Shown here one piece after another: positions 7,816 through 17,398 of a stretch of 64,000 bases of DNA. Position 1 is the first letter of the stretch; each line of letters opens with the position of its first letter. Under the pieces are notes generated by a model. It did no database searches. It was not told where the DNA came from and worked only from the letters and a program-made list of their open reading frames with translations. The position numbers and the translations under genes are program-made. Source of the stretch: Candidatus Nitronereus thalassa (GTDB taxonomy: Bacteria; Nitrospirota; Nitrospiria; Nitrospirales; UBA8639); NCBI RefSeq assembly GCF_032191465.1, contig NZ_JAQOUE010000001.1, positions 434,001-498,000 on the forward strand, written 5' to 3'.

Positions 7816-8253
7816 TAAAATGCCTCTCTGTCAGGGTTTCTGACAAAAGATCGTCAAGATTCGAACTCTGGCGTAATGGATATATGTTCTTCTGCTTTGC
7901 CTCGTAGTCCCAACTCCCCGTTTTTTCATTACTTCTTGGATTCTTCCCCTACTGTCTTTTGGTCGAAATTCTTCCATGTTTCATGGCATGGCAGATGCAA
8001 AATAACCAACAGCGTTAGGCAATTCCTACCGACCACGAATAATAAGAATAAGGAGAAAACAACATGACGAATCGAGCGCCGTAATTCAAAAGAATTTTAA
8101 TAAAAATGGCATGAAATGATTTTTTGATCGTGTCCGCAGAGTCGGGCCATGGGGAAAGTCTACCCAAATTACTAAGTAAAATTAATTAGGTAATAAAAAT
8201 AATCTCTTCTTCAATTTTGGAAAGAAGGATTTCACCAAAGAAAGGATTCATCA
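7816..8253. other. intergenic region between divergent genes
   Basis: This stretch separates the EF-G-like gene (reverse) from the LuxD-methyltransferase fusion gene (forward). It becomes A+T-rich towards the forward gene and ends with an AAAGGA ribosome-binding site 7-8 bases before the ATG at 8254. A short open frame around 7876-8067 has no protein-like composition. No RNA gene or repeat was recognised, and the promoter of the fusion gene was not identified with confidence. Confidence 0.5.
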
Positions 8254-10497
8254 ATGTCACCCCTCCTCGATAAAAAAACAAACACCATTATTACACCGGA
8301 GTTGTCTTTCAGTAAGGAAACCCCCGTTCAATTAGAATTGCATGGATCTTCTTGGCAGGGAAAAATGATCACTTGGTGGAATACAGGGCTATCAATTGTC
8401 GTGGATGGGTATATCCCAGTTACCGTTTCCCAAGGAGTCACACTTTCCTTCACCAATCGAAATTCTTTTTTACGTATTTCTGGAAAAGTGAAAAAATTGG
8501 ATCTATGGGGAAGAAATCAGGAAGAGGAATTTCCCATACTAGGCCAGATGTGTGTACACATTGAATCACCGGATTTAGATGAATTCACTTCATTCAAATT
8601 GCGTAGCCTCTTAAAAAAACAGCAACAACAACCTCTTTTTACCCAGATATCATTAAAATTTTGTGCAGAGCAAACTGACGACCCCCTCATCGACGTCTCG
8701 CCACAGAAGTCGACCATGGTCAAACCCCCCATAGAATTACCGGAAATAGCCAAAGCTTTTCACCCCAGATTGGAAAGTACTCTGTTTCAATGCCGAAACG
8801 GAGCAGGAAAGACCATCATCGGATACCACGATTCACAAGAAAATTCTCACGACAACGCCCCGGTCATTATCCTCGCGCCTGGGTATGGTGAAACCAAACG
8901 AGAATATATTACCTTGGCGTATTTTCTTGCCAGTAATGGATTTCATGTGTTGCGTTATGACCATACGGACCATGTAGGAGAAAGCGAGGGCAGTCATGAA
9001 TATACCAGTCTGACGACGATGAAACAGGATATGCAGGCAATACTCGACTACGCACAACAGCAATGGAAGGGAAATAAAGTCACCTTAGTCGCCACCAGCT
9101 TGGCAGGTCGTGTGGCCCTCAAGGTTCTCAGGGAAGGATATCAGATAGACCAACTGATTCTGATTAGTGGAATTGTCGATGTACGGGCCACACTGGCCGC
9201 GGTGCATCAGGAAGATCTCATCGGTGACTATTTGGATGGCCATGGCCGCGGAGTGACGAATGTCCTGGGATTTAATGTGGATGGACAGGTTTTCCTAAAG
9301 GATACCGTAGAAGGAGGATATAGTGATTTAGCCTCAACAATACTGGATGTCCAGGAAATTAACGCTCCCGTAGTGTGGTTTTCTGCAGAACAAGATGCGT
9401 GGATTGACAAGTGTGCTCACCAACAAGTGGTAGAAGCCCTCCCTTCACAACAATGTCGATCTTTCGTGATTCCGGAAGGATTGCATCGCCTTTTGGAAAG
9501 TCCCCGCAAAGCAAAAGCAGTTTATCGTCAAATCGTTTTTGCCTGTCAGGAACAATTGGCCTGGCAACCAAAACCCGACGAACTGATTGAACCGTCGCGT
9601 AAGGATATTGGGAGACAGAATCGTTTGGAACGCGAAAGAAATCAGACGCGGCGATTTCAGCACGAAGCCGACCATGTAGATTTTTGGTCACACTACTTGG
9701 CAAATTTTCATTACATTGCCAACAGTCATGATTATATGGCCGCGTTGGATCATATTTACCATCTCTTAGGTCCTGTTTCGCCAGGCAACCGGGTACTTGA
9801 TGCCGGATGTGGAAACGGTCATTTTGGTTCATTACTATTCGCCAAAGAATGGACTCGACATCAACGGGAACTCCGATCCAACCAAGAACCAATCTATTAT
9901 TTCGGTGTGGATTTTGTGGAGACGGCTCTCACGCAAGCCAAGATCCAACTTGCCCAAGTTCTTCGACAAGCCGACGAGGGACATTCGGAGGCCACGGTTC
10001 CCTCCAATATTCTTCACCCGAATTTTTATCGACTGGATTTGAATAAACCCCTTCCCTTTCAAGACGAAAGTTTTGATCGAATTATGAGTAACTTAGTGAT
10101 TGGATACCTTCGGGATCCCGCAGCCAGCATACGTGAATTACTGAGGGTCTTGGCTCCTGGTGGAAAATTGGTGCTAACCAATCTCAAACCCTGCTCCGAT
10201 TTAACTCAAATTTATCGAAATTTTGTAGACCGCACCACCGTCCGAACTGCCATTCATGAAGCGCGAGAGGTATTAAATAATTCAAGCCATATTCGCCAAG
10301 GTGAAAGCGAGGGAGCATTCCAATTTTATTCACAAGAAGAATTTCGCCAGATCTTGTCCTCTTGTGGGGCTGTCAATCCTCAGGTGTTTCCAACCTTTGG
10401 AAACCAAGCCTATATTGGGATAATAGAAAAACCTTCATTGGCAATCAACGAGGATATAGCCAGCATCTGGAGTTCCGATGCACTGGTGGCTGCATAA
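8254..10497 (+). CDS. PilZ-like / LuxD-type acyl thioesterase / SAM methyltransferase fusion protein
   Basis: This 747-residue protein joins three parts. Residues about 20-120 form a small beta-rich region resembling a PilZ barrel, tentatively. Residues about 175-435 match the LuxD acyltransferase/thioesterase family: SNGFHVLRYDHTDHVG aligns with LuxD, and the triad is Ser282 (ATSLAG), Asp381 and His411. Those gaps (99 and 30 residues) nearly equal the LuxD Ser114-Asp211-His241 spacing. Residues about 480-725 are a class I methyltransferase with SAM motif VLDAGCGNG (514-522) and LAPGGKLVLTNL. LuxD releases fatty acids from acyl carriers for bacterial luciferase; no luxC, luxE or luxAB is present here. 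I infer an enzyme that releases or transfers an acyl group and methylates a related product. The actual substrate is unknown. It stands alone, apparently monocistronic. Confidence 0.75.
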   Translation: MSPLLDKKTNTIITPELSFSKETPVQLELHGSSWQGKMITWWNTGLSIVVDGYIPVTVSQGVTLSFTNRNSFLRISGKVKKLDLWGRNQEEEFPILGQMCVHIESPDLDEFTSFKLRSLLKKQQQQPLFTQISLKFCAEQTDDPLIDVSPQKSTMVKPPIELPEIAKAFHPRLESTLFQCRNGAGKTIIGYHDSQENSHDNAPVIILAPGYGETKREYITLAYFLASNGFHVLRYDHTDHVGESEGSHEYTSLTTMKQDMQAILDYAQQQWKGNKVTLVATSLAGRVALKVLREGYQIDQLILISGIVDVRATLAAVHQEDLIGDYLDGHGRGVTNVLGFNVDGQVFLKDTVEGGYSDLASTILDVQEINAPVVWFSAEQDAWIDKCAHQQVVEALPSQQCRSFVIPEGLHRLLESPRKAKAVYRQIVFACQEQLAWQPKPDELIEPSRKDIGRQNRLERERNQTRRFQHEADHVDFWSHYLANFHYIANSHDYMAALDHIYHLLGPVSPGNRVLDAGCGNGHFGSLLFAKEWTRHQRELRSNQEPIYYFGVDFVETALTQAKIQLAQVLRQADEGHSEATVPSNILHPNFYRLDLNKPLPFQDESFDRIMSNLVIGYLRDPAASIRELLRVLAPGGKLVLTNLKPCSDLTQIYRNFVDRTTVRTAIHEAREVLNNSSHIRQGESEGAFQFYSQEEFRQILSSCGAVNPQVFPTFGNQAYIGIIEKPSLAINEDIASIWSSDALVAA

Positions 10498-10552: not shown

Positions 10553-10598
10553 GGGTCGTGATGAGGTGTACAGGCTGCGGCCTGATTCATCACGACCC
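10553..10598. repeat. long perfect hairpin in the intergenic region
   Basis: A 12-base arm GGGTCGTGATGA (10553-10564) is perfectly complementary to TCATCACGACCC (10587-10598), and the loop holds a second stem CAGGC/GCCTG (10571-10575 with 10580-10584). On the forward strand no T run follows; on the reverse strand the hairpin is followed by a T-rich run. It could be a terminator for the fusion gene, a leader structure of the kinase gene, or a REP-type element. Confidence 0.5.
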
Positions 10599-10608
10599 AA
10601 CCGAAAAA

Positions 10609-10633
10609 CCCTCATTTTGCGGAGGGGATTTTT
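10609..10633 (+). terminator. weak intrinsic-terminator-like hairpin
   Basis: CCCTC (10609-10613) can pair with GAGGG (10622-10626), followed by GA and five T. The stem is short, so termination here, after the fusion gene and before the kinase gene, is only possible. Confidence 0.3.
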
Positions 10634-10778
10634 ATTTGCCCTTGGCACTCTTCATCAAAATAGCTTCCTAGCCAAGCGAAGAAATTTCTTTGCATGTCTT
10701 CGTCATTTCTATTACCCTCCTACCCGTGTTTGTCGTGGTACTTTCTATGTTTCTCATCTCTTCCCCCAAGTCACTTCT

Positions 10779-12929
10779 ATGACGCTTTGGGCCCTGAGTG
10801 GATTATTGAATGGTCTGGCAGCCACCGGGCTGACGATTTTAGTCTATTCCCGTGATCCGCATGATAGTCGGCACCGAACATTTGGGTACTTCGGTCTCGC
10901 CGTTGCCATTTGGAGTTTTGCGTATTTTGGATGGCAGTTGGCCGAAACTCGGGAGGTAGCCTTTTTTCTTGCCAGGATATTTATGATGGGTGCCATTTTT
11001 ATTCCGGTCACCTATCTTCATCATATTCTCGTCCTTCTTCACCGTGTCGGTCGGCACAAAACGATCCTGCGCGTATCGTATGTTTTGGCGGTCCTTTTTT
11101 TAATTGGGAGTATGACCCCAGCCTTTATTGCCGATCTGCAGCCTGCGTTATCGTTTCCATTTTGGCCTCGAGCCGGGTGGTTGTTTCATCCATTCTTAGT
11201 CTGGTGGACGCTATTGGCCATATTTCCGATCTATCTCTTGTCTGTTGCCTGCAAACGCGAAATTGGGTCAAAGCGCACGCAATATTTGTACCTACTCTTG
11301 GGAACCATCATTGGGTACAGCGGCGGCGCCACAAACTTTCCCCTGTGGTATGACATTCCTCTTCAACCGTTCGGCACCATTTTTACCACGATCTATGTCG
11401 CTCTAGTGGCCTATACCCTCCTGCGCCATCGATTAATGGACTTTTCTCTCGCATTGGAAAAAGGAGTGACGTACCTGCTCCTCATGGTTCTCGTGGCGTT
11501 ACCTGTGTATCCCTTGTTGCTGCTCATGCAAAAAATATTCTGGAATCAAATTAATTTACAGTTTTCATTCCTCTTGTTGGCCTTATTCCTTCTCACGATC
11601 ATCGGGGCGTATAAAATGAAAATTGGCACGGAAGGGGTTATTTCTCGGGCATTATTTCGAGAACGCCACGAGATGCATAGAACACTCACTAATTTTTCAA
11701 AAGCGTTAGTCACCATTCTTGACGTGAGCACTCTTACCCAAGAAATTGTTCGCACCCTGGGACGAACCATGGGGGCCAACACGGTCGTCCTCTATTTGCT
11801 GAACCAACAACAGGGCAACTATCGTTTAGCTGCTGAGTTCGGCCAAGCAAGCAGGAATACCCCCATTACTCAAACCCTGGCGCGTGAAAATCTGCTTCCT
11901 CAGTATCTCCAGAAAACCAAAGTGGGATTCATGGTGCACGATCTTGAGTCAGACCCCAACCAGGAAACAGCCCAATTGTTGGTATTACTTCGAGAATCCT
12001 TTGATGGTGAAGTAATGCTACCCCTCATCAATAAAACCCGGCTCGTTGGGTTTTGCTGCCTAGGGCCTCGAATGGGTTCTGATTCCTATTCTGAGCAAGA
12101 CTTGGCGATGTTAATGACCTTGGCCCAGGAAGCAGCCCTGGCGTTGGATAACAGCTTACTTTATGAGGAACTTAAAGATTCACAGGCGCAAGCCCATCGA
12201 GCTGATCGGCTCCGATCCTTAGAATCCATGGCTGGAGGGCTGGCTCATGAAATCCGTCCGCCTCTTGGTTCGATAAAAGCGTTTGTGACTCAAGTTCCTC
12301 AACGCATTCAAGATCCGGAGGTCGTGTCCAAATTGTCAGAAGAGGTGGCGCTTGATGTGGCGAAAATCGAACGATTGATCAAAGAAGTTTTGGATTATGC
12401 TCGGCAAACTAAAACGGAATTTCGGCAGGAAGACCTCAATGAAATCGTGGACTCCTGCTTGTGTTTTATCGAAGCCATTCCCACCTCCAAGCCAGTCATG
12501 ATTGAAAAAACCTTGTCGCCGGTGATTCCCCCCCTGTGGATCGATCGTCAGCAAATCAAGCAAGTCGTGCTGAATATTTTCATGAGTAGCCTGGACATGA
12601 TGGGTGCAGTAGGAGGAACCATCACGGTAGTGACTCAACCGCGAATGAAATCGGAGCAGGAACTTTGGGCAGAATTGGAGATTACGCTAGCGCGAGGTGG
12701 ATTACCATTGTCTGACCTTCAAGACGGAGAAGGCGTCTTGTTTGCTCGGGAAGCGACTACCGACAAAAATGTTGAGCGGTCAATGCGGAATGAAGGATTT
12801 GGGTTGTCCATTGCCAATCAAATCATTCAGGAACATCAAGGATTTATTGACGTCAAGCCCGGAGTTGGGGCAGATATTTCAATCACGGTGTTGCTGCCAG
12901 CCAAATCTCGCACATCGAGGGCAAGCTGA
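10779..12929 (+). CDS. membrane-bound histidine kinase with GAF domain and degenerate ATPase domain
   Basis: The open frame runs from GTG 10566, but its first 71 residues overlap the hairpin region and are not protein-like; ATG 10779 starts directly in the first membrane helix, giving 716 residues. There are roughly eight membrane segments to residue 275, of the seven-helix sensor type seen in PrsK-like kinases, a GAF domain (about 300-460), a dimerisation domain with His490 in GLAHEIRPPLGS, and a C-terminal ATPase-like domain. That last domain looks eroded. The N box reads LNIFMSSLD, with Ser603 where the metal-binding Asn is expected, and the G1 region reads DLQDGEG rather than DxGxG, although GFGLSIANQI is kept. 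It may bind ATP poorly. No response regulator is adjacent. Confidence 0.72.
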   Translation: MTLWALSGLLNGLAATGLTILVYSRDPHDSRHRTFGYFGLAVAIWSFAYFGWQLAETREVAFFLARIFMMGAIFIPVTYLHHILVLLHRVGRHKTILRVSYVLAVLFLIGSMTPAFIADLQPALSFPFWPRAGWLFHPFLVWWTLLAIFPIYLLSVACKREIGSKRTQYLYLLLGTIIGYSGGATNFPLWYDIPLQPFGTIFTTIYVALVAYTLLRHRLMDFSLALEKGVTYLLLMVLVALPVYPLLLLMQKIFWNQINLQFSFLLLALFLLTIIGAYKMKIGTEGVISRALFRERHEMHRTLTNFSKALVTILDVSTLTQEIVRTLGRTMGANTVVLYLLNQQQGNYRLAAEFGQASRNTPITQTLARENLLPQYLQKTKVGFMVHDLESDPNQETAQLLVLLRESFDGEVMLPLINKTRLVGFCCLGPRMGSDSYSEQDLAMLMTLAQEAALALDNSLLYEELKDSQAQAHRADRLRSLESMAGGLAHEIRPPLGSIKAFVTQVPQRIQDPEVVSKLSEEVALDVAKIERLIKEVLDYARQTKTEFRQEDLNEIVDSCLCFIEAIPTSKPVMIEKTLSPVIPPLWIDRQQIKQVVLNIFMSSLDMMGAVGGTITVVTQPRMKSEQELWAELEITLARGGLPLSDLQDGEGVLFAREATTDKNVERSMRNEGFGLSIANQIIQEHQGFIDVKPGVGADISITVLLPAKSRTSRAS

Positions 12930-13395: not shown

Positions 13396-14409
13396 TCATG
13401 ATATCTTGGCCTCTAAAATGACTCCATCCCAATCTCCTGTCCCCTTTTTCAATTGAAAATATCGTGTCTTTTTGAAGCCACAGGCTTTGAGCCAGCGCTG
13501 GACTTCGTTGGCGCTGTAGGTATTACCCGTGGGTGTATAGAGCAGCATGGTGACCGCAAACAGATTGGTTTCTAGTGTATCAAAGCCTGGCTTGTCCATG
13601 AGAAACGTATCTTGGATAAGGATTCGTCCGCCAGGATTGAGCGCTCGTTTCAATTTACGAAATAAGGCTTTGTTTTCTTTTGGCGAAAAAATGTGCAAGA
13701 CGTTAGACATCCACATTACATCGAATTTACCCGGTACACTGCTTTTGAATAAATCCCCTGGATAGAAAGAAAGTCGTTTGCCATGCCGAAGAGGTTTGGC
13801 GATGGTCTTGGCTACTTCCAGTGCAGGCTCACGATCCCAAATTCCAGCTTCAAGCTTGGGATTTTTCGCTAAAAACTCTAGGGCATAGGTTCCAGGGCCT
13901 CCACCCACATCTAGTAACGAACTCACCGTTTTGAGATTGAGTTGTGCTGCTACTTGTTTGGCGGATTTGAGAGACCGTTGATGCATGGCCCAGGTAAAGG
14001 AACGACGATTTTCCGGATCGTCAGGTCCTTCATTTTCCAAAGGTTTTCCCACACGCACGGAATCCGTGAGGTTGGCCCAGTTTTCCCATTGGTGATGAAG
14101 AAGCTCGAGATAGGCGCCTTGGTACTGAGGGCTGTGTTTATTCAGCACCGTCCGGCCAAGTGTTCCCACGCCAAAGGTTTGTCCACGTTTTGTAAGCAAC
14201 CCGGTTGTTTCTAAATTTCTGAGAACAATCTCAATGCCTCGCTCATTGGCTCTTAATGTTTTTGCCAAGGCCTTGGGTGCCCACCATCGCGAGCCCATGG
14301 TGGTGAAAATATCCAAGTCCAAGGCGGTTGCCAGAATTCGAGGTAAACGAAAAGCATACACGGCGTCGCGGAATTCATCCATAGTGCGAATGGAAGATGG
14401 AGAAGGCAT
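13396..14409 (-). CDS. O-methyltransferase family protein (acetylserotonin/hydroxyneurosporene type)
   Basis: The 337-residue protein has the layout of small-molecule O-methyltransferases: an N-terminal winged-helix dimerisation region (about 15-90, with TALDLDIFTTMG and the NLETTGLLTKRG turn) and a C-terminal SAM domain with LLDVGGGPGTYALEF, GDLFKS, FDVMWMSNVLHIF and PGGRILIQDTF. The histidine in NVLHIF is the usual position near the catalytic base. The methyl acceptor cannot be read from sequence. It is the last gene of an apparent reverse-strand run beginning near 16584, with 36 bases to the gene before it. Confidence 0.8.
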   Translation of the reverse strand: MPSPSSIRTMDEFRDAVYAFRLPRILATALDLDIFTTMGSRWWAPKALAKTLRANERGIEIVLRNLETTGLLTKRGQTFGVGTLGRTVLNKHSPQYQGAYLELLHHQWENWANLTDSVRVGKPLENEGPDDPENRRSFTWAMHQRSLKSAKQVAAQLNLKTVSSLLDVGGGPGTYALEFLAKNPKLEAGIWDREPALEVAKTIAKPLRHGKRLSFYPGDLFKSSVPGKFDVMWMSNVLHIFSPKENKALFRKLKRALNPGGRILIQDTFLMDKPGFDTLETNLFAVTMLLYTPTGNTYSANEVQRWLKACGFKKTRYFQLKKGTGDWDGVILEAKIS

Positions 14410-14445
14410 AGGTAAAATCCTTTTGGAAGAGGAAAGAGTAACGGG

Positions 14446-14886
14446 TTAGGCTGCCGTAAATTGCTGTTGATAGCGGACAATTAATTGATCAAGTTCTGAC
14501 AGATTCGCGAGGTTAATGGGGCGTTCAAAAAATACGGCAACATATTCATCAGTCATTTCTGTCCGCTCGGTAAACCCTTCTGCTTTGAGACGAGGCCGAT
14601 ATTTCGACACGACCTGTTGAATATAAAATTTAACCTGTTTCGCAAGCTCATCACTCCCTAGGTCTTCGGGAGTTCCATCGGATAGGAGGCTCTGCATATC
14701 TTCCAGCGAATAGCCGGCTTGGCAAATAAGTTGACCCTGTGGTGTGATTTCAAGTTGCCAGTCTTCATCGTCTAACCCTAAGGTTAACGCACCTCCAGCC
14801 TCATACTGAACAAACCCAGGATAGGTTTTTTTTAGATGTTTTTGAACTTGATCCCATAGCGGAGAGGTATTCGATGCGTCACTCAT
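14446..14886 (-). CDS. conserved hypothetical protein, 146 residues
   Basis: No family is recognised. The protein is acidic and soluble, has no signal peptide or membrane segment, and reads as alternating helix and strand, starting MSDASNTSPLWDQVQKHL. It lies 15 bases after the TPR gene and 36 bases before the methyltransferase gene on the same strand, so the three are probably co-transcribed. The composition fits a real gene and no overlapping frame competes. Confidence 0.65.
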   Translation of the reverse strand: MSDASNTSPLWDQVQKHLKKTYPGFVQYEAGGALTLGLDDEDWQLEITPQGQLICQAGYSLEDMQSLLSDGTPEDLGSDELAKQVKFYIQQVVSKYRPRLKAEGFTERTEMTDEYVAVFFERPINLANLSELDQLIVRYQQQFTAA

Positions 14887-14901
14887 GATGTCGATCTTTC
14901 C

Positions 14902-15702
14902 TTATGAATTTGTTTGAGTCTTTTCGGCGAGTCGTTGCTGAATTTTCGCAAGACGCTGTGAGTTTTCTTCAAGTTTCGGTAATCCATATTTTCGATCAAC
15001 ACGAATGACGCGATGCAATAACCGCGCGGCTTCCTCATCATGGCCGGAGGCTTCATGACATCCTGCTAAGGTATACCAAGCCCCCCCCATTCGAAGTTCG
15101 TCACGTAATCGTTCGGCAATGGCCAAGCTTGTGTTTGCACAAGCCATGGCATCATCAAGGCGGTTCCAGGCTAAATACATGCGCGCCAGCATTTTATAAA
15201 CATCCGCCTGCCCTGCATGATTGCCTACACGGTTCATGAGGGTAATCGATTGGGAATAATACTCCAAGGCTTGATCAAACTCTTTGGTTTCTTTGGCCAC
15301 AAGTCCCAAGTCAGAGAGGAGCACGGCCTTGGCTCTATCATCCTTATAGAGGTTCATGATATCGAGCGCTTCTAGGTAATAAGCGCGTCCGCGTTCCCAT
15401 TCCCCAGCATCGACATGCAAATTGCCAAGATTAGCCAATGTCGAACTAATACCCCGATCATCGCCAAGAAGTTTTTGAAGCACCAAGACTTCTTGGTAGT
15501 AATTATTGGCCTGTTCACGTTGCCCGCTGACGGCGCAAATATTTCCCAAATTTCCCAAGGTGGCGACCATTGCTCGTTGATCCCCGCTTTTTCGATCAGC
15601 TTCCAAGGCTTTGACATAACACTGATAGGCCTCCGTATAAAAGCCACGAGAAAAATGCTGATTGCCTTGGTCGTTGAGTTGGGCTGAATGAGATGGCCGC
15701 AT
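14902..15702 (-). CDS. tetratricopeptide-repeat protein
   Basis: The 266 residues consist of about five to six TPR units. Examples are AMVATLGNLGNICAVSGQ, then ISSTLANLGNLHVDAGEW, then AVLLSDLGLVAKETKEF and DVYKMLARMYLAWNR, all with the small-Gly/Ala spacing of TPR helices. There is no signal peptide, so it is probably a cytoplasmic protein-protein adaptor. The partner is unknown; neighbours in the run are a degenerate metallo-beta-lactamase-fold protein, two hypothetical proteins and a methyltransferase. Confidence 0.85.
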   Translation of the reverse strand: MRPSHSAQLNDQGNQHFSRGFYTEAYQCYVKALEADRKSGDQRAMVATLGNLGNICAVSGQREQANNYYQEVLVLQKLLGDDRGISSTLANLGNLHVDAGEWERGRAYYLEALDIMNLYKDDRAKAVLLSDLGLVAKETKEFDQALEYYSQSITLMNRVGNHAGQADVYKMLARMYLAWNRLDDAMACANTSLAIAERLRDELRMGGAWYTLAGCHEASGHDEEAARLLHRVIRVDRKYGLPKLEENSQRLAKIQQRLAEKTQTNS

Positions 15703-15754
15703 GGAAAAAATGAGGAATGGTGATTGACACGAAAGGTCAAAAAAAATCAGCGGA

Positions 15755-16348
15755 CTACTGCAATGCTTGTTTGACTATGGGTTTGGCTCCCGTCAAGATT
15801 GAAACACCGTCCCCAACTAACATGGAATCAAAATTATATTTCAAGAGACGCCGGAGTCCTTCTTTAGCCTTGGCCGCGTCTGTGTATTTCTCAGCCGGCA
15901 ACATGCACACTGAACCTGCAGGCTTTCCTAGCAGGGCATCTCCGACAATCAATACGCCCTTTCCTTGTTGGATAAATAACGCGGATTCTCCTTTGGATTT
16001 TTGATCGGCAAGGTGAATGGCCCAGATGCCACCAGGTAAAAGTTCTTGGTCACGGTATACTTCGTCAGGAGTCACATTCATTTCCGATGCATCGCTTTCC
16101 GGAACGTACAGCCGACATTGAAATTCTTTTTGATACGCCGCAGCTTCACGCTCATGATCGCGGTTGGTCAAAAGGATGTAATCAAGTTGTCCACTATGTT
16201 TGACCTGAGCAATTTCTGAAGAAGTCATTGGAGGAGGGTCGACAAGAATACGGTGTTCGCCAACGTGGAGGAAGTGGCCGTTAAAATCAATCTGCTTCTC
16301 TTCAGAAAACCACGACCACTCCGAGATTCCCGGCAGTAACCCTTTCAT
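15755..16348 (-). CDS. metallo-beta-lactamase-fold protein with degenerate metal site
   Basis: The 197-residue protein has the fold order of small MBL hydrolases: HFLHVGEHRILVDPPP, DYILLTNRDHERE, IQQGKGVLIVGDALLG, and a late VGDGVSI. The usual THxHxDH signature is replaced by TNRDHER and the final histidine is not evident, so the classical two-metal site is incomplete. It may be non-catalytic or use altered ligands. Its start codon overlaps the stop of the upstream 79-residue gene by four bases (ATGA), indicating translational coupling. Confidence 0.7.
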   Translation of the reverse strand: MKGLLPGISEWSWFSEEKQIDFNGHFLHVGEHRILVDPPPMTSSEIAQVKHSGQLDYILLTNRDHEREAAAYQKEFQCRLYVPESDASEMNVTPDEVYRDQELLPGGIWAIHLADQKSKGESALFIQQGKGVLIVGDALLGKPAGSVCMLPAEKYTDAAKAKEGLRRLLKYNFDSMLVGDGVSILTGAKPIVKQALQ

Positions 16349-16584
16349 AGGGCCGCAATTTCTTTTTTAAGCATGGACGTCACTTTGGTGAGAATATCCT
16401 CTTCCGTTGGAATATCAAGAATGTCGTCTTCAGGTACGGTAATAAACTTTCGGTTAGAACCTTTCGTGAGTGAGATGAGAAAAAGACTATTGGAAGGAGT
16501 GGTCGGAATCACCACTTCGACATTAGGATCAATGCCGGAAATGACCTCAAGAAATTTCGCCTTGCCTTCTTCAAAATCTTCCAT
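16345..16584 (-). CDS. small conserved hypothetical protein, 79 residues
   Basis: No family is recognised. It begins MEDFEEGKAKFLEVI, is acidic, and appears to be a mixed alpha/beta soluble protein. Its stop codon overlaps the start of the MBL-fold gene by ATGA, which supports real translation and a shared role. It is the first gene of the reverse-strand run 16584-13396. Confidence 0.6.
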   Translation of the reverse strand: MEDFEEGKAKFLEVISGIDPNVEVVIPTTPSNSLFLISLTKGSNRKFITVPEDDILDIPTEEDILTKVTSMLKKEIAAL

Positions 16585-16680
16585 TCCTTTTATTCAATCC
16601 TTTCACTATTCATAACAAAATACGAAAGTATTATCCTGGGAACTTTTGTCCATCTGCAAATTCACCGTCAAGCCAAATGT

Positions 16681-17226
16681 CTATAAACTTCCGGAACTAG
16701 TGGATGGAACTGGTCCTAACAATTTATTCACCTCGTCTAAAATGATCTTATGATCGGCTAAATCCATATTTCCGACCCTCTGCCACCGAATCACGCCTTG
16801 TTGATCCAGAATGTAGACGTTAGGAATAAAGCGTCCTCCTCCATATAAGCGATCCGTGACTTGATCAGGGTCGATGAGATAGGGATAGGTCACCTTCAGG
16901 GGAAACATTCCCATAAATTCAAGAATATCAGCCTTGGAATCCCCGGAGGAATTGACGCCCACTACCGCCACGTTTTTTCCTTGTGTCGCTTCGTGAACCT
17001 TTTGCAAATTGGTACTTTGAATGAGGCAAGGTTCACAAATATGAAAAAGACCCAGAACTACGACTTTTCCCTTCAAGTCATTTAAAGACACTTGTTGCCC
17101 TGCCACAGAGGTAAGGGAAAATAACGGAGCTATCTCTCCGACTTTGAAAAATCCTTTAGCCCAACTTGTACCCCCTATTGCCAGGAAGCCGATCATGAGA
17201 CCGATCAAAACATATCGACGATTCAT
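16681..17226 (-). CDS. TlpA/ResA-like thioredoxin-fold protein
   Basis: This is an exported AhpC/TSA-TlpA family protein. An N-terminal signal or anchor (MNRRYVLIGLMIGFLAIGG) is followed by a thioredoxin fold with the redox pair in HICEPC (Cys64 and Cys67 counted from this start). GRFIPNVYILDQQGVIRW contains the cis-proline region. The longest frame begins at GTG 17238, but a GGAGG ribosome-binding site lies five bases before ATG 17226, so that start is used (181 residues). Family members reduce or oxidise periplasmic disulfides, often in cytochrome c maturation; no cytochrome gene is adjacent, so the partner is open. Confidence 0.82.
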   Translation of the reverse strand: MNRRYVLIGLMIGFLAIGGTSWAKGFFKVGEIAPLFSLTSVAGQQVSLNDLKGKVVVLGLFHICEPCLIQSTNLQKVHEATQGKNVAVVGVNSSGDSKADILEFMGMFPLKVTYPYLIDPDQVTDRLYGGGRFIPNVYILDQQGVIRWQRVGNMDLADHKIILDEVNKLLGPVPSTSSGSL

Positions 17227-17398
17227 AGCGTCCTCCACCTAGGTTAAATGGTCGATGAGAATACCCAACAACCTGAACAGATCTTAACATACGATTTTGG
17301 AAGGGAGCAATTTACATGGGGGTAGTTATTTGAAAAGGAAAAGAATCAGGGGTTTTCCTAGCTTATTGCAAGAAAGGCAATGCCCATACTGGCATGTT

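Follow-up and report, generated by a model that had tools for sequence, protein, structure and literature searches.

A LuxD-family hydrolase-methyltransferase fusion linked to a histidine kinase gene in Candidatus Nitronereus thalassa and its relatives

The window, a stretch of 64,000 nucleotides of the Candidatus Nitronereus thalassa genome, harbours on its plus strand a gene (8254..10497) for a protein combining a PilZ-derived domain, a LuxD-family hydrolase and a class I SAM methyltransferase, as judged from profiles and an AlphaFold2 (AF2) model. The same fusion recurs across the phylum, mostly with a histidine kinase gene directly next to it. In a broad sense, the gene product is probably an acyl enzyme acting together with this kinase, whereas its more specific assignment as a bifunctional acyl enzyme within a lipid-signalling operon of two-component type is tentative and falls somewhat short of probable. 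LuxD is familiar from bioluminescence; in the present case, an enzyme of its family forms a conserved part of an apparent lipid-signal operon across a phylum. No description of the fusion was found in literature searches.

The open reading frame of 747 amino acids occupies positions 8254-10497 exactly, begins with ATG, contains no internal stop and is preceded by a Shine-Dalgarno-like AAAGGA (8241..8246, plus strand; 7 bases 5' of the ATG, from reading of the sequence). An assembly join, named in the sequence-only reading as a finding that would overturn it, is ruled out since the fusion was detected at 34 further loci among 60 relatives (a few of them broken by contig ends) and matched in 93 of the 396 genomes forming an even sample of the phylum (E <= 1e-25). 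Plasmids yielded only partial LuxD or methyltransferase matches and not the fusion, and a contig scan with query-specific peptides, which is of low sensitivity, led to one relative. Distant members comprise compact or PilZ-led forms of 547-672 amino acids (L090-L093) as well as longer and divergent ones of 971-1046 amino acids (L094-L096). The latter retain residues aligning as Ser, Asp and His together with a glycine-rich SAM-type motif, and a PilZ domain is present in L095 and L096.

The middle domain (residues 172-434; 8767..9555, plus strand) is assigned to the LuxD family of alpha/beta hydrolases. Pfam PF02273 (LuxD family, Acyl_transf_2) matches residues 195-417 with E 2.8e-31 and 109.3 bits (gathering cut-off 20.3), and Methyltransf_31 matches further downstream (see below), in agreement with the earlier proposal that both domains reside in one protein. 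Among solved structures, LuxD (1tht) was retrieved by phmmer against the PDB with E 6.5e-22 for the window protein and with E 1.6e-35 for a profile of 23 active relatives (next protein 4.5e-11), and it also ranked first in a Foldseek search with the AF2 model (E 1.2e-17; mean pLDDT of the model 79.9). As 1tht was best by all three routes, the domain is LuxD-like and not an average alpha/beta hydrolase; placement in a common hydrolase family distant from LuxD, which would have spoken against the initial interpretation, did not emerge. The motif NGFHVLRYD, also pointed out at the outset, pairs with NGFHVFRYD of 1tht, and the A-x-S-L nucleophile elbow, the triad and the NGFHV-RYD and HVG-S motifs are likewise shared with LuxD, the myristoyl-ACP thioesterase of lux operons. 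Unlike LuxD, however, the window protein also contains a methyltransferase and a PilZ-derived domain, and its partner is a histidine kinase. Membership in PF02273 notwithstanding, LuxD proper is ruled out by the curated cut-off of the LuxD equivalog NF052253 (108 bits versus 420). The gene does not belong to a lux operon: the bacterial luciferase domain PF00296 has no match anywhere in the genome, and PF05893 (LuxC) has a single borderline one (20.7 bits) inside a 1036-aa ORF, in line with the absence of nearby lux partners noted in the sequence-only reading. Since luciferase is absent from the genome, a lux operon remnant can be dismissed.

The predicted triad consists of the nucleophile Ser282 in the ATSLAGR elbow (9097..9099), the acid Asp381 (9394..9396) and the base His411 (9484..9486), all on the plus strand. 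These three residues, recognized already in the sequence-only reading, and the SAM-motif core GCGNG are present without exception in 23 aligned active relatives; Ser282 is replaced in other paralogues. The core belongs to SAM motif I, D516-A-G-C-G-N-G522 (9799..9819, plus strand), of the C-terminal domain (residues 436-727; 9559..10434, plus strand), which by profile, its own AF2 model and fold search is a class I SAM methyltransferase. Methyltransf_31 (Pfam) matches residues 510-645 with E 3.2e-16 and 59.8 bits (cut-off 27), and several further Pfam methyltransferase profiles match over 497-705. The profile and fold searches favour no particular methyl acceptor, so that carboxyl methylation, as considered below, is a proposal from logic and not from similarity. 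For BioC (TIGR02072), 40.7 bits were obtained against an equivalog cut-off of 184.95, which is passed by no locus of the genome.

The N-terminal domain (residues 23-125; 8320..8628, plus strand) is modelled by AF2 as a six-stranded barrel (strands within 23-104) followed by a helix (110-125). Pfam PilZ (PF07238) does not match the window protein up to E 1 but does match relatives, and hhalign of 15 family N-termini against the PilZ-bearing regions of relatives yielded a probability of 96.9 and E 1.9e-10. By this profile comparison the domain is of PilZ ancestry, and the designation as PilZ-like in the sequence-only reading thus applies to its descent and not to a Pfam PilZ match. The c-di-GMP motifs RxxxR and [DN]xSxxG are absent from the window N-terminus and from the family members read; they are retained in L097 and L105.

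Linkage of the fusion to a histidine kinase gene is well supported. The kinase gene follows immediately on the same strand at 44 of the 50 loci with a visible neighbour and lies one gene further at two; this count derives from a simple prediction of ORFs, representatives of which were checked with Pfam, includes L105 and does not represent 44 independent events, because related genomes are included. The two genes are separated by -7 to 33 bp in several families, and the genomic surroundings of the pair differ between families. One locus (L036) carries the fusion without a neighbouring kinase. The kinases of the window family are of 7TM-GAF-HisKA-HATPase architecture; that of the clade lacking catalytic residues (below) is shorter (about 425 amino acids), and L094-L096 have other kinases, including an HK-REC-HK protein in L094. 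An apparent 1641-aa protein of fusion plus kinase in L105 (7382-12307) is no evidence for a one-protein fusion: the expected methyltransferase C-terminus runs on in another frame, so that a frameshift explains the single ORF.

The kinase gene in the window is located at 10566..12929 (plus strand); the GTG listed as its start probably lies too far upstream, an ATG at 10779 being suggested by relatives. In the three genomes of the window genus the His box is kept, while the N-box Asn is replaced by Ser and the G1 Asp by Ala, two residues that are both present in 37 of 37 other kinases compared. Owing to these losses the window kinase may not autophosphorylate. Within the genus, identity amounts to 76-80% in the 7TM and 83-89% in the HisKA part, and a pN/pS of about 0.2 was obtained, pS being close to saturation; judged from the coding sequence, the gene is maintained and shows no decay. 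The degenerate kinase may act as a membrane receptor pairing with another kinase. A second, intact kinase paralogue (37% identity) is encoded in the same genome (L121 9150-11303; G000:C1:2555192-2557306), near genes for a fatty-acid desaturase and a TENA/haem-oxygenase-like protein.

In extended operons, a sigma-54 NtrC-type response regulator and a REC-HD-GYP protein are added to fusion and kinase. Genes related to acyl chains adjoin distant relatives of the fusion and are not found in the window: FabF-like synthase genes are located upstream of L092 and L093, and acyl-CoA dehydrogenase genes upstream of L094-L096. The proposed release and methylation of an acyl chain gain support from these fatty-acid genes. 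Between fusion and kinase of L051 (7158-8756) and L099 (5932-7497), a PilZ-ketosynthase III is encoded, in the sequence of which the Cys, His and Asn active-site motifs are visible. It is not a general partner, as it adjoins the fusion in these two loci alone and the other matches among the 60 relatives resemble ordinary ketosynthase III.

Not all members of the family retain the catalytic residues. The sequences classed as dead number 14, of which 13 are devoid of the triad and mostly have a degraded SAM motif, while L099 has lost the hydrolase and kept the methyltransferase; the placement of L099 is unsure owing to its very long branch. Three members of family f2 carry Asn instead of Ser and retain Asp, His and the SAM motif. 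On a tree of 51 sequences the active label requires 1 change and the dead label 2 (shuffled-label means 12-14), a single split between active and dead having moderate support (73/79). The paralogues in L052-L060 and L104 (1395-1435 amino acids; REC-PAS-coil-PilZ-PilZ-LuxD-methyltransferase) are without the catalytic triad, and their operon contains kinase, NtrC and HD-GYP genes, with genes for PP2C and SnoaL-like proteins upstream. L097 displays the arrangement REC-PAS-PilZ-PilZ-LuxD-methyltransferase with intact catalytic residues and is apparently an active enzyme equipped with REC, PAS and two PilZ domains of its own. Catalysis is evidently not always needed, since paralogues lacking the catalytic residues stay conserved beside the kinase. 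The idea that the active enzyme requires the dead paralogue as its receptor is unsupported, several genera possessing the dead form alone. The division into active enzymes and dead paralogues provides a natural experiment on whether a signal synthase may turn into a receptor. Overall, the initially proposed domain identities, LuxD kinship and lack of lux partners were upheld by searches with profiles, against solved structures and by fold. Overlooked at that stage were the histidine kinase partner, the REC-PAS paralogues devoid of catalytic residues and the loss of the N-terminal c-di-GMP motifs.

According to the proposed mechanism, the hydrolase would release an acyl chain from its carrier, either acyl carrier protein or CoA, or transfer it, and the methyltransferase would methylate the product, most simply at the carboxylate to form a fatty-acid methyl ester. 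The membrane-soluble methylated product would then be sensed by the neighbouring kinase, and in complete operons the signal would be passed on to the sigma-54 response regulator and the REC-HD-GYP c-di-GMP phosphodiesterase. This full sequence of events up to a methyl-ester signal is possible, though we would not call it probable. It is favoured by the LuxD kinship, the invariant triad and SAM motif, the kinase linkage, the acyl-chain genes, the extended operons and L097, as well as by the PhcB/PhcS precedent described below. It is weakened by the lack of preference for a particular acceptor, the loss of Asn and Asp in the window kinase, the conservation of dead paralogues, the occurrence of acyl genes beside distant relatives alone and L036 with its missing kinase. 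More speculative, and on balance unlikely, is the extension to a phylum with an undescribed form of lipid signalling, in which release and methylation of the acyl chain fall to one enzyme and detection of the product to a 7TM-GAF kinase, and in which the same enzyme has become, in a paralogous lineage, a catalytically dead receptor of REC-PAS-PilZ type that feeds into sigma-54 and c-di-GMP output.

The proposed signalling would work along the lines of two known systems. In the DSF system RpfF/RpfC/RpfG, an acyl-ACP-acting enzyme, a histidine kinase and a REC-HD-GYP protein are encoded in one locus. Fusion loci with an extended operon would follow the same three-part plan, with the LuxD-methyltransferase fusion in place of RpfF, which is a crotonase-fold enzyme. 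The methyltransferase PhcB makes 3-hydroxy fatty-acid methyl esters that are sensed by the PhcS kinase of the same operon (PMC8578825, PMC6989110). As in PhcB/PhcS of Ralstonia, a gene for a SAM methyltransferase is followed by one for a sensor histidine kinase (here at 44/50 loci), and fatty-acid chemistry is implied. PhcB is described without a LuxD-type or PilZ domain (PMC8578825, PMC6989110), and the likeness, one of gene order and implied chemistry, does not suffice to assign the fusion loci to a Phc-type system; moreover, the downstream parts of the fusion loci are NtrC and HD-GYP proteins. A methyl-ester signal, if true, would be the second instance of Phc-like communication, here with the two reactions united in one protein, and would open a way to study how these bacteria signal with fatty acids.

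Other explanations differ in what they assign to the LuxD-methyltransferase module. It might mainly be a ligand-binding sensor for acyl-ACP or acyl-CoA and SAM, catalysis being secondary, that reports the state of lipid synthesis to the kinase. The dead paralogues lend support here, as they show the module to be kept without catalysis: the 14 dead sequences and the three with Ser replaced by Asn retain both the module and the kinase, NtrC and HD-GYP neighbours, and PilZ, PAS and REC domains have sensory or regulatory roles. Binding alone, however, needs neither triad nor SAM motif, which the 23 aligned active members keep without exception, and we regard a mainly sensory module as unlikely. 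Somewhat less likely still is a module that modifies a membrane or exopolysaccharide-linked lipid, with the kinase controlling envelope or exosortase-related genes, as thought for the PEP-CTERM/exosortase two-component system PrsK/PrsR, and with no diffusible signal. The L051 kinase aligns with PrsK (TIGR02916) over the whole model, the sigma-54 NtrC-type regulator resembles PrsR (443 bits versus the PEP-CTERM regulator model), an exosortase is present in the genome, and the intact second kinase paralogue lies near a fatty-acid desaturase gene. Yet the scores stay below the curated cut-offs of both PrsK and the regulator (PrsK equivalog cut-off 300 bits; L051 kinase 164.7, window kinase 49.8), so that by this profile the window kinase is not PrsK, and the exosortase gene is situated about 950 kb from the fusion rather than beside it.

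The pairing of a methyltransferase with an alpha/beta hydrolase acting on acyl carriers has a known precedent in BioC and the hydrolase BioH. A corresponding methyl-ester switch, in which methylation hides a carboxylate until the hydrolase unmasks it in biotin synthesis or another chain-building pathway, would agree with BioC being among the better methyltransferase matches. We consider it very improbable: the score lies far under the BioC cut-off (185 bits) and is exceeded at 8 other loci of the genome, the hydrolase groups with LuxD, and the kinase linkage would be left unexplained. An identity with BioC/BioH was rejected on account of the weak matches and unreached cut-offs. Equally remote, if not slightly more so, is the view that a commonplace lipase or esterase has been combined with an unrelated methyltransferase and that the kinase gene lies beside them by chance. 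Hydrolase_4 does match as well (76.9 bits) and the fold resembles monoglyceride lipases, but LuxD is by far the closest solved relative, and the kinase linkage persists in differing surroundings with gaps of few base pairs.

Behind the kinase gene, a block on the minus strand of the window (13396-17238) is conserved in family f1. It codes for a PF00891 O-methyltransferase, a 146-aa protein without Pfam match, and TPR, metallo-beta-lactamase-fold and AhpC/TSA proteins.
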